This document shows, piece after piece, positions 40,744-44,459 of a stretch of DNA of 64,000 bases. Position numbers and translations under genes: made by a program. This stretch comes from Bauldia sp. (GTDB lineage Bacteria; Pseudomonadota; Alphaproteobacteria; Rhizobiales; Kaistiaceae), in the NCBI GenBank assembly GCA_026126025.1, contig JAHCJZ010000002.1:1-64000 (forward strand), in the 5' to 3' direction. The number at the start of each line of letters is the position of its first letter. Within the stretch, counting starts at the first letter, position 1. A model generated the notes under the pieces. That model ran no database searches. It was not told the origin of the DNA and saw only the letters and a program-made list of their open reading frames with translations.

Positions 40744-41633
40744 CGCTTGTCGTGCTCCTGGCGCTCGCGCCCGCCAGCGCGGCGGCGCATGGCGGCGGCG
40801 AGATCATCTTCCCCGCCGAGGTGCTCAGCCACTGGCATCCCGACCCGCTGCCCCTCCTCCTCGCGCTCGGCGTGGTCGCGCTTTACGGCATCGGCCTCAC
40901 GCGCCTGTGGCGCCGCGCAGGTGTCGGGCGCGGCGTGCGCGGCTGGCAGGCCGGGCTGTTCGCCGGCGGCGTCCTCCTCTTCCTCTTCGCGCTCGCCTCG
41001 CCGCTGGAATCGGTGACCGGGACGCTCCTCACCGCACACATGATCCAGCACGTGACGCTGGTCGCGGCGGCGCCGGCGCTCGTCCTTCTCGGCCGTCCGG
41101 ACATCGTCCTCCTCTGGACGATCCCGCAGCGCTGGCGGCACGGGACGGCGGCCGCACTCAGCACCGCCGCGAACGTCCTCCGGCCGCTGGTCCGGCCGGT
41201 GCCCGCGGCGCTGATCCACGGCGCGGTGATCTGGGCGTGGCACGCGCCGCCGCTCTTCGAAGCCGCGCTCGCCAGCGACCTCGTCCACGACCTCGAGCAC
41301 GCGACCTTCGTGGCGACCGCCTTCCTGTTCTGGCAAGCGATCTTCCTGGCGATGCGGCGCAGCGCATGGCGCCTCGCCGGCCTCGTGGCGATCGTGCTGA
41401 CCGTCATCCAGAGCGGCCTCCTCGGCGCCCTCCTCACGCTCTCCAACCGCGTGCTCTACCCCGCCTATGGCGACGGGCCGCTCGCCTGGAACCTCACGGC
41501 CCTGGCGGACCAGCAGCTGGCCGGGCTCGTCATGTGGGTTCCCGCTGCCGCGGCCTATCTCGCGGCGGGCGTTGCGCTGGGCGCGGCCATCCTCGGCTTC
41601 ACCGGCATGCCGCGTCCGCAAAGACTCACCTGA
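40731..41633 (+). CDS. ctaG: Caa3-type oxidase assembly protein CtaG
   Basis: A 300-residue protein overlapping the previous gene by 13 bp. A signal-like segment ends at ASAAAHGGG, followed by about seven TM helices and the conserved features LSHWHPDPLPLLLALG, LTAHMIQHVTLVAAAPALVLLG, GAVIWAWHAPPLFEAAL and LVHDLEHATFVATAFLFWQ. These His-rich motifs define the Caa3_CtaG family, needed for assembly (copper insertion) of caa3 oxidases, distinct from Cox11-type CtaG. It is the last gene of the operon. Confidence 0.88.
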   Translation: MRRVTLVVLLALAPASAAAHGGGEIIFPAEVLSHWHPDPLPLLLALGVVALYGIGLTRLWRRAGVGRGVRGWQAGLFAGGVLLFLFALASPLESVTGTLLTAHMIQHVTLVAAAPALVLLGRPDIVLLWTIPQRWRHGTAAALSTAANVLRPLVRPVPAALIHGAVIWAWHAPPLFEAALASDLVHDLEHATFVATAFLFWQAIFLAMRRSAWRLAGLVAIVLTVIQSGLLGALLTLSNRVLYPAYGDGPLAWNLTALADQQLAGLVMWVPAAAAYLAAGVALGAAILGFTGMPRPQRLT

Positions 41634-41788
41634 GACCGTCCCGCGATCCGGCAAGGCCGGCGTCCGCGCCAAGCCCACTTCAGAACGCAATCGGGCCAAC
41701 GCGGTCGGCAGACGGTGACCGAGGTATTCCTCACCACGGTTCGTTCTGGTTGGCCATCTCAACGCGCGAGCGACGCTGAGGACGACGC

Positions 41789-42922
41789 CTATTCCGTCGA
41801 AAGGGGCGTCGCCGGGCCGATTCGGCTGACGAGTTCGACAAGCTGAACCTGGCGCGTGATCTCGAGCTTCGAGTAGATCCATTTGAGGTACGTCCGCACG
41901 GTCGCTTCCGTCAGACCGAGCTCACGCGCCACCTGAGCGGCCGTCATTCCGGCACCGACGAGCGCGGCGACCTGGGCCTCCGATGGAGGCAGGCCAAGGA
42001 GGATCAGTGCATCGATAGCGGTCGAATGGCGACGTCGCGGATCGGGATCGACCAGGATCAGGATCGTTGCAACGGGCCCCCGCGCGAAGACCCATTCGGG
42101 CTCCGACGACGCTTCGTCGACCGGAACGGCGCGCGCGAGGAGAGGTCGCTGCCCATGATCGCGGGGAATCCTGACAGAACGCCGAGGCGGCCGTTCGACA
42201 AGCATTCGGTCCAGAGCGGACTGGCTGTCGGGCGACCGGCAGCGGAGCCGGCCGCCCACGATCCTGAGGCCATCGGACAGAATCCGGTCAGCCCATTGTG
42301 TGGTCCTGACAACGAAACCATCCGCGGTCAGGAAGATCGCAGCCACACCAGCATCATCGAGCGCCGCCGACCAAGCCACGGCGTCGCTGGACGCCAGGGT
42401 TGCGCGGTCGACCAGGGCGAGGCTCATTTCGAGATGGTCGGTGAACAGGGCAATGCCCGCCAGCTCATCCGAGCTGAACGCGCCGGTGCCGGCGTTCCGG
42501 TCGAGGATGAGGACTGCGCGTCGACCCTCGCCAAGCGACAGCAAGGTACCCGCGAAGTCACCGAAACCGACCGGATTCAGGAACTCCTTGTAGAAGCCAC
42601 GCAGCGCGTTCTCATGCAGCGTGCCAACCACTTCGTCCGTAATGATCCGGGCACCGAAGTACGGATCGGTCAGGCTCTTGGCGATGACATGGACGCGCGG
42701 ACAGCGGATGTGCCACTCGTCCTCGAAATAGGTCTCGATGAAGCTTTCCTGCCCCGGAGAGCAAAGGTGCGGTCGCTCCGGATCGAGCGGGTATCTCAGG
42801 AGCGACGCGAAGCGCGCCCCGGTCGCCTCTGCGACCGCCCCCAGCGTTGTTGACCAGGACTGGCGCCCCAGCGCCGCGGCATAGATGAGCCGTATCGTGT
42901 CGTGCACAGCATTTGCCCGCAT
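41789..42922 (-). CDS. LuxR-type transcriptional regulator
   Basis: A 377-residue protein (the ATG at 42922 has GGGGAG close by; another ATG lies 18 bp upstream without an SD). The C-terminal 65 residues form a LuxR/GerE helix-turn-helix: LGLPPSEAQVAALVGAGMTAAQVARELGLTEATVRTYLKWIYSKL. The long N-terminal part, TIRLIYAAALGRQSWSTTLGAV onward, resembles the GAF/PAS-like input of rhizobial LuxR regulators that sense unknown ligands. It is divergent from the orphan binding-protein gene, which it probably controls. An inverted repeat TCCCA-N4-TGGGA lies between them. Confidence 0.85.
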   Translation of the reverse strand: MRANAVHDTIRLIYAAALGRQSWSTTLGAVAEATGARFASLLRYPLDPERPHLCSPGQESFIETYFEDEWHIRCPRVHVIAKSLTDPYFGARIITDEVVGTLHENALRGFYKEFLNPVGFGDFAGTLLSLGEGRRAVLILDRNAGTGAFSSDELAGIALFTDHLEMSLALVDRATLASSDAVAWSAALDDAGVAAIFLTADGFVVRTTQWADRILSDGLRIVGGRLRCRSPDSQSALDRMLVERPPRRSVRIPRDHGQRPLLARAVPVDEASSEPEWVFARGPVATILILVDPDPRRRHSTAIDALILLGLPPSEAQVAALVGAGMTAAQVARELGLTEATVRTYLKWIYSKLEITRQVQLVELVSRIGPATPLSTE

Positions 42923-42996
42923 GCGCTCCCCTCGGGCCATGGCTGGGCCGGCACCCAGGAACCAAGCGGCCGCCTAGCGCGCCGCATCCCGCGATA

Positions 42997-43010
42997 TCCC
43001 AATTCTGGGA
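42997..43010. promoter_or_regulatory. Inverted repeat TCCCA-N4-TGGGA, copy 1
   Basis: A perfect 5-bp inverted repeat, TCCCAATTCTGGGA, preceded by CGATA, in the divergent LuxR/binding-protein region. A similar sequence, CGATATCCCAATCTGGGG, occurs just after the binding-protein gene (44339-44351). It is a candidate site for the LuxR protein. Confidence 0.4.
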
Positions 43011-43062
43011 TGCTGAAGCGTCGCAGCGTCCGCTACCGACCGTCAAGCCCGTTGAAGTACCT

Positions 43063-43095
43063 GCCCGTGGGCCTCAGCCCACGGGCTTTCTTTTT
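43063..43095 (+). terminator. Terminator in the 5' leader of the binding-protein gene (attenuator-like)
   Basis: A perfect 10-bp stem GCCCGTGGGC / GCCCACGGGC with loop CTCA is followed by TTTCTTTTT, a textbook intrinsic terminator on the plus strand. It ends 38 bp before the ATG at 43134. An upstream segment AAGCCCGT (43045-43052) can pair exactly with ACGGGCTT (43081-43088) inside the terminator, giving a mutually exclusive anti-terminator. Alternatively it ends a short RNA. Confidence 0.7.
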
Positions 43096-43133
43096 GCGGG
43101 TGGACATCTCGGACAACCAAGGGAGGGGCAGTT

Positions 43134-44312
43134 ATGGCTACCAGGCGCGAAGTCATGGTGGGCGCGGGAGTGGCTGCGGCAGCGGCGACGCTTCGCGGCT
43201 TTCCGGCGATTGCACAGCCGAGGCTATTCCGCATTGGCGTGTTTGTCAGCGAAACCGACTTCTACGATGCGGCGATGTCGACCGGGGTGGAGCCGTATGT
43301 TTCCCAGATGCGCCTTGGTCTTGAGCTTGCAGCCGCCGAGATCAATGCCGAAGGCGGTTTGTTGGGACGACCGATCGAACTTGGCTACGTCAACGACGGC
43401 GGTAGCCCGCCGACAGCCGATTCCGTCGTCCGCACGATCGACGAATTGGGTGCAGAGGCATTCGTCAGCGGCTTCGTCCAGGCGTCTCCCCGTCTGGTTG
43501 CGCTGCGATCGGACAATCGGATTCCGGTCCTTCATGCATCATGGGTCGACGCTTCCTACTGCGGACCGGTCGCGAAGCATTTCGGCCCGACGCTGCAACA
43601 GGTCGTGCCGGCAATCCACGCCCATGTTCCGGACGCCGCCCGAGAGCACCCGTTCTCCATCTCGACCTGGACCCCGTCCGGCCGCGCCATCTCGCAATAC
43701 CTCTCCGGCGCCCTCGGGGCGACGCACACAGGCGACGCTCTCGTGACCACGCCCTATCCGGGCAACTTCCCCGGCGAGTATCGCGGCGTGATGGGGTGGG
43801 CAGCCGAGATGGGGTCGACCGTCATCTGGCAGGCCGACCCTCGGCCCTACGCGGTCAATGTCGTCAACCAGGCAGTCGAACGCGGCCTCGCAGATGGACG
43901 CGTCTTTGCCTTTGTCGATTTCTCGGAGTGGCAGGCGGCGCAGCTACAGCCGGGCGCATCCGTCGTGACCTGCCTCCCCTTCATTGCAAGCGATCCAAGC
44001 AGCGGCGTCCGGGATTTCGTCGGGCGCGCCGGTGCCATGGCTTCCGACGGGCTCGTGACTCACGTCGCCTTTACACACTACAACGCGATCCTCGCCCTCA
44101 AGGCCGCGATCGAGCGTTCCGGAGAAGCCACATCGGCGGGCGCCATTGGCGGGTTCGAAGGCGGGCTGACGATCGAGACCGCGACCGGACCGCTCACGCT
44201 GGAAGCCGGCGGTTACGCCACAATGCCGCTATTCGTCGCGACGGCATCGGGCGGCGGCGGGCTGGAGATTGTGGAGCGGCTTGAGGCGGTTCCTTCTGGC
44301 GCCACCTGCTAG
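43134..44312 (+). CDS. Orphan periplasmic binding protein (amide/urea/branched-chain amino acid type)
   Basis: A 392-residue protein. The signal peptide, TRREVMVGAGVAAAAATLRG, has a twin-arginine-like start and ends near FPAIAQP. The mature part is a Peripla_BP_6-type fold: FRIGVFVSETDFYDAA, LGLELAAAEINAEGGLLGRPIELGYVNDGG, and a C-lobe with VTHVAFTHYNAILALKAAIERSG. The type binds amides, urea, amino acids or aromatic acids, either for ABC import or for sensing. No permease or ATPase gene is adjacent, so it either works with a distant transporter or serves as a sensor with the divergent LuxR protein. GGGAGGGG precedes the ATG. Confidence 0.82.
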   Translation: MATRREVMVGAGVAAAAATLRGFPAIAQPRLFRIGVFVSETDFYDAAMSTGVEPYVSQMRLGLELAAAEINAEGGLLGRPIELGYVNDGGSPPTADSVVRTIDELGAEAFVSGFVQASPRLVALRSDNRIPVLHASWVDASYCGPVAKHFGPTLQQVVPAIHAHVPDAAREHPFSISTWTPSGRAISQYLSGALGATHTGDALVTTPYPGNFPGEYRGVMGWAAEMGSTVIWQADPRPYAVNVVNQAVERGLADGRVFAFVDFSEWQAAQLQPGASVVTCLPFIASDPSSGVRDFVGRAGAMASDGLVTHVAFTHYNAILALKAAIERSGEATSAGAIGGFEGGLTIETATGPLTLEAGGYATMPLFVATASGGGGLEIVERLEAVPSGATC

Positions 44313-44338
44313 CCGTTGTCGCGATCCACGGATCGATA

Positions 44339-44351
44339 TCCCAATCTGGGG
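44339..44351. promoter_or_regulatory. Inverted repeat, copy 2
   Basis: TCCCAATCTGGGG directly downstream of the binding-protein stop, sharing CGATATCCCAAT with the copy at 42997-43010. It is less symmetric than copy 1. Confidence 0.3.
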
Positions 44352-44431
44352 AGGGCGCCACAACCGCCGCTCGCGTAAGACGGTCCGGTTGTACGTAACG
44401 GTTACCGATCCCGGCTGCGGCCTGGTACCTT

Positions 44432-44459
44432 GGATGGGGTGCAGCACTGCACCCCATCC
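44432..44459. terminator. Bidirectional hairpin between convergent genes
   Basis: A perfect 13-bp inverted repeat (44432-44444/44447-44459) with GGATGGGGTGCAG as left arm and only two bases between the arms. It lies between the convergent binding-protein and SulP genes. No T-run on either strand, so termination would be by structure or Rho. Confidence 0.5.

Follow-up and report, generated by a model that had tools for sequence, protein, structure and literature searches.

A terminator hairpin and a putative LuxR-type operator in the spacer before a binding-protein gene of Bauldia sp.

What does an intrinsic terminator do in front of a gene? The window, by which we mean the whole stretch of 64,000 nucleotides of Bauldia sp. 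DNA that was analysed, raises this question in the spacer at 42941-43133, between a divergent LuxR-type gene and a binding-protein gene. The spacer contains, in order, a palindrome, an 8-mer, a hairpin, a T-run and GGGAGGGG. The original prediction had placed a terminator with a 10-bp stem and a T-run upstream of the start codon of the binding-protein gene, and this terminator is present in the sequence with all its parts as described. The features of the region are:

41789-42940, minus strand: divergent LuxR-type regulator, 383 residues, with a C-terminal GerE helix-turn-helix (Pfam GerE, E 9.8e-10)
42996-43011, no strand assigned: palindrome ATCCCAATTCTGGGAT, a putative LuxR-type operator, based on its genome-wide distribution
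43045-43052, plus strand: 8-mer AAGCCCGT, proposed as an anti-terminator and disfavoured by folding
43063-43072 and 43077-43086, plus strand: perfect 10-bp stem GCCCGTGGGC / GCCCACGGGC with loop CTCA, an intrinsic terminator hairpin, based on sequence, folding and shuffles
43087-43095, plus strand: T-run TTTCTTTTT, eight of nine positions T, which completes the terminator (sequence)
43121-43128, plus strand: GGGAGGGG, which we read as the likely ribosome-binding site (sequence)
43134-44312, plus strand: Peripla_BP_6 binding protein, 392 residues (Pfam E 1.1e-25), with what we read as an N-terminal export signal

Nine of the ten stem pairs are G-C, the loop has four nucleotides, and the isolated hairpin (43063-43086) has a folding energy of -22.1 kcal/mol. 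A GC-rich stem-loop followed directly by a T-rich tract is the sequence pattern of an intrinsic terminator. The terminator ends 38 bp before the ATG (43134) of the Peripla_BP_6 gene, and the hairpin does not directly follow the end of any same-strand gene. A simple scan of 14 kb gave six terminator-like sites against 5.2 expected, so that the class as a whole is not enriched; 43063-43086 is the sole site in the scanned region with ten pairs, nine of them G-C. Across 264 kb of contig C12 (the window plus 200 kb from the same contig) we found seven hairpins with at least eight perfect pairs and at least six T in eight positions, four of which, the leader hairpin included, have stems of at least ten. 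Ten dinucleotide shuffles of the 264 kb gave 0-2 such hairpins each (mean 0.7), with a stem of ten once. The quality of the hairpin exceeds chance expectation. When the two arms were searched for as a pattern throughout the genome, with three mismatches at most, the leader site and one other were returned.

By our judgement five of the other six strong hairpins in C12 lie directly 3' of a same-strand ORF, which suggests that hairpins of this class mark transcript ends in the genome. Those at 99077, 214139, 154110 and 218951 are placed just past an ORF stop by the ORF map, and a binding-protein ORF ending at L028:145, where the map chose overlapping ORFs, precedes the one at 80135; the hairpin at 243244 falls outside these five judged gene ends. 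The leader hairpin is the odd one out of the seven, as it stands in front of a gene. The terminator is real in sequence and probably ordinary in kind. Another hairpin lies at the far end of the binding-protein gene:

44432-44459, plus strand: 12-bp hairpin whose tail is poor in T, located where the binding-protein and SulP genes converge, found by the scan

This is a probable true 3' end, shared by both convergent genes. We also considered, and rejected, a terminator of the upstream cytochrome-oxidase genes that had been kept in a relative: ctaG was matched in two of seven genomes, and at the one of these two matches that was examined, in the same-genus genome G002 (the other is L083), only a single 8-column imperfect stem follows the gene.

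If hairpins of this kind generally end transcripts, the one before the binding-protein gene might do so for RNA arriving from elsewhere. The gene would then start downstream of 43095, and the hairpin would act as an insulator that halts plus-strand transcription entering from further upstream; the source might be the cytochrome-oxidase genes, which end near 41633, or antisense transcription over luxR. This reading fits the behaviour of the contig's other strong hairpins, most of which end transcripts, as well as the finding that 41501-43200 has just one other plus-strand terminator-like site, a weaker hairpin at 41717. However, for transcription to begin between 43096 and the ribosome-binding site, the promoter boxes would have to lie within the hairpin, and the candidate that we found there, a sigma54-like match across the T-run, agrees with only seven of the 12 consensus positions. 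Because 990 of 3273 comparable sites in the 264 kb score at least seven, we rejected this sigma54 promoter as commonplace; the other two copies of the palindrome in the genome have no better sigma54-like match nearby. Furthermore, untranslated antisense RNA is normally terminated by Rho, which weighs against an antisense RNA of ~1.4 kb as the target of the hairpin. We regard an insulator with a downstream start as unlikely.

The start may instead lie upstream. No sigma70-like -10 element (at least four of six positions) starts on the plus strand between 42990 and 43094, and no promoter pair was found between 36 and 50 kb of the window. On its lux box, whose centre is near -42, LuxR activates transcription. 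If this spacing held for the palindrome, one would expect a start at ~43045, with the hairpin at ~+20 and a terminated RNA of ~50 nt. The hairpin would fall inside the leader if the promoter lay between it and the palindrome.

Such a transcript could also be a product in its own right, namely an independent, trans-acting small RNA of ~50-100 nt running from after the palindrome to 43095. The terminator and the upstream spacer, which is free of plus-strand genes, would suit such an RNA, and the accessible part of PMC7815308 documents small RNAs of E. coli that derive from leaders and have intrinsic ends. Against it, Rfam gave no small RNA here, and matches to the spacer in 100 relatives are short and partial (the best covers 31 bases, E 6e-5), leaving no conserved RNA visible. 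We think a small RNA of this kind distinctly improbable.

A terminator in leader position also invites the idea of a regulated attenuator, in which a protein, a small RNA or a ligand would mask the 5' arm or stabilise an alternative structure and thereby make read-through depend on a signal. The original prediction had named AAGCCCGT as the anti-terminator, and the complementarity on which this was based is exact: the 8-mer is the reverse complement of 43081-43088 (ACGGGCTT in the 3' side of the hairpin). A complement to the 3' arm and tail of the same length is found in 71 of ~5000 random same-length stretches of the window, which makes it only mildly unusual, and it arises because GCCCGT is common to the 8-mer and the 5' arm of the terminator. 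The proposed function did not fare as well as the complementarity. We modelled transcripts from starts at 42975, 43012, 43030, 43040 and 43044 with six end points each, and the terminator had a mean pair probability of 0.997-0.999 in every one that reached 43086 or further. When the 8-mer pairing was forced, the resulting structure was 6-19 kcal/mol worse in all modelled transcripts, with a probability of at most 3.1e-4. Folding therefore gave no mutually exclusive anti-terminator of similar stability; a protein could nevertheless stabilise a competitor. In favour of more structure in the leader, the pairing between 43036-43062 and 43087-43113, on either side of the hairpin, was matched by only 43 of 2000 shuffles, which could point to a larger structured element, and the whole leader folds with z = -3.04, a value that the hairpin itself seems largely to carry.

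The regulators that might work such a switch were also looked for. A known riboswitch, which the original prediction had listed, found no counterpart in Rfam, where no covariance model matched the window at gathering score and the leader gave chance-level matches only (E up to 5). The same holds for ANTAR-like antitermination. The ANTAR target, as given in the accessible part of PMC3369931, consists of tandem short hairpins upstream of a terminator, with hexaloops that bear A1 and G4, and no A1/G4 hexaloop hairpin with a perfect stem of at least three pairs is present in 42941-43133. A search of the genome for ANTAR proteins returned no match, but its controls were equally silent and it carries no weight here. 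We rejected leader-peptide attenuation as well, since the spacer has no short ORF that closes before the hairpin; the frames from 43010, 43052 and 43067 all reach 43322. Given the weak competing pairing and the lack of an Rfam match, an ANTAR-type hairpin or a leader ORF of this kind, attenuation at this terminator is possible but unsupported.

Comparison with homologous genes bears on the same point. The binding protein is rare: four of 101 genomes of relatives have it at E 1e-20, its own included, the non-self matches are 27-30% identical, and both same-genus genomes in this sample lack it. At E 1e-30, and with at most four first-look candidates scored per genome, matches were found in five of 397 genomes of an order sample and 15 of 385 of a class sample, each count including its own genome. 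A scan of genome contigs with the single binding protein gave no match, and a two-sequence profile recovered the homologues L076 (63%), L077 (60%) and L078 (44%), the last apparently the contig of L036, as match coordinates and length agree. None of 24 homologous genes has a comparable hairpin near its start; 22 of them are less than 50% identical to the window gene product, and the closest ones (63%, 60% and 44-46%) are included. Within 500 bp upstream of 22 homologous matches, a terminator-like hairpin of any kind occurs in two, L044 (AT-rich, at -213) and L047 (at -496). Neither L076 nor L077, which were scanned separately, has one; the L076 homologue has no leader of its own, because its ORF opens at most 8 bp from where the preceding ORF ends. 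The hairpin is thus a local feature, which argues further against a regulated attenuator, an explanation that we hold to be improbable. At L036 (540-1274), the 44-46% homologue is divergent from a gene for a carbon-nitrogen hydrolase, a hint of an amide-like ligand in that branch.

The strongest lead in the spacer is the palindrome, a clearer control element than the hairpin. With up to one mismatch, TCCCAATTNTGGGN has three matches in the whole 3.2-Mb genome (two for the reversed control), at 42997 of the window, C12:84640 and C44:77852. The second lies ~200 bp upstream of a luxR paralogue whose product is 46% identical to the LuxR of the window, and the third ~190 bp before a gene with a PQQ dehydrogenase domain (E 6.7e-51); all three sites thus adjoin luxR or PQQ genes, a position that fits a LuxR/GerE operator. 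Among 101 genomes, exact YCCCAATTNTGGGR occurs three times in this genome and once each in nine others (reversed control, three). LuxR or PQQ homologues adjoin 3/3 of the sites in this genome versus 0/9 elsewhere, as judged for the nine by tblastn on ~1.5 kb each side. The pattern CCCAAT-N(0-3)-TGGG has three sites in the 264 kb: one on each side of the binding-protein gene, of which the 3' one follows it closely, and one ahead of the second luxR. A profile of the three LuxR paralogues at E 1e-40 picked out this genome alone among 347. By association, the palindrome is a putative operator of the divergent LuxR-type regulator. The site behind the gene is:

44339-44352, no strand assigned: TCCCAATCTGGGGA, a palindrome variant just 3' of the binding-protein gene (sequence)

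The 12-mer CGATATCCCAAT at 42992-43003 recurs around this variant, and together with a TGGG half it flanks the gene at 42992-43010 and 44334-44352. Random pairs of window stretches had some 12-mer in common in 77 of 2000 draws, and the flanking copies could be two operators or the trace of an insertion. By eye, CGCTA (43031-43035) lies exactly 20 nt after the window palindrome and likewise at C12:84640 (L028, ~4675), where it is on the side that points away from the luxR paralogue.

Quinoprotein genes recur around these loci. A PQQ-domain gene lies ~2 kb from the second luxR (C12), and another follows the third luxR paralogue (C2, 41%). The latter locus (L029, G000:C2, 52.3-56.3 kb) also encodes an SBP_bac_3-like protein, and no copy of the palindrome was seen in the 400 bases upstream of its luxR. 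Among the homologues of the binding protein, the gene for the closest (63%) comes immediately after those for a PQQ dehydrogenase and a copper protein, which ties the subfamily to quinoprotein oxidation, and a cytochrome c gene lies a few kb away from that for the 60% homologue. This arrangement suggests that the LuxR-type proteins may control a gene set for quinoprotein alcohol oxidation. No description of such an arrangement appeared among the papers listed for LuxR with quinoproteins or PQQ.

In our reading, the binding-protein gene of the window is under LuxR control, linked to quinoproteins and preceded by an ordinary leader terminator, and we tentatively favour a genuine, unswitched intrinsic terminator that stands between the gene and a LuxR-dependent promoter, with control at initiation. 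Transcription would probably start past the palindrome (42996-43011) and ahead of the hairpin; at ~43095 many polymerases would stop and free a short RNA of ~50-80 nt, and the remainder would read through into the binding-protein gene. The divergent LuxR-type regulator would turn initiation on and off from the palindrome, the gene may belong to a small set tied to PQQ-dependent alcohol oxidation, and the terminator would serve as an unswitched damper or insulator. A strong leader terminator that is not regulated would be costly, however, which argues for some regulation. In a bolder version, three paralogous LuxR-type regulators found in this genome only would share the operator YCCCAATTYTGGGR and couple PQQ genes to an alcohol- or metal-sensing orphan periplasmic binding protein, and the terminator would be a second, undescribed antitermination checkpoint for the same signal; we consider this very unlikely. 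If the terminator were regulated, an orphan binding-protein gene would be under leader control in a setting other than AmiC/ANTAR. The palindrome is a candidate binding site for a LuxR-type group linked to quinoprotein alcohol oxidation, and could tie to that process a binding-protein subfamily of unknown ligand.

AmiC of P. aeruginosa is cytoplasmic and has the kind of binding-protein fold seen in the product of the window gene. The AmiC/AmiR amidase operon, an ANTAR system, thus resembles the window in its binding-protein fold and in the terminator before the gene. In contrast to it, the window spacer has no ANTAR-type hairpin loops and no adjoining ANTAR gene, the neighbouring regulator is of the LuxR/GerE type, and the binding protein carries what we read, from MATRREVMVGAG, as a twin-arginine-like export signal. 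GerE-type regulators of PQQ-dependent alcohol dehydrogenases, PedR2/ExaE of Pseudomonas putida and the exaA regulator of Azospirillum brasilense, are covered in the accessible part of PMC6115532 and likewise tie a GerE-type regulator to quinoprotein genes. In contrast to these regulators, the one in the window has in Pfam a C-terminal GerE domain and no receiver domain, and no sensor kinase was identified beside its gene; the palindrome and a binding-protein target are not described for them in that part of PMC6115532. As for the intrinsic leader terminators of bacterial 5' UTRs, the window differs in that no switching element, ligand or regulator was identified and the hairpin is unconserved in homologues, but it shares with them a GC-rich hairpin and T-run between a likely promoter and the start codon.
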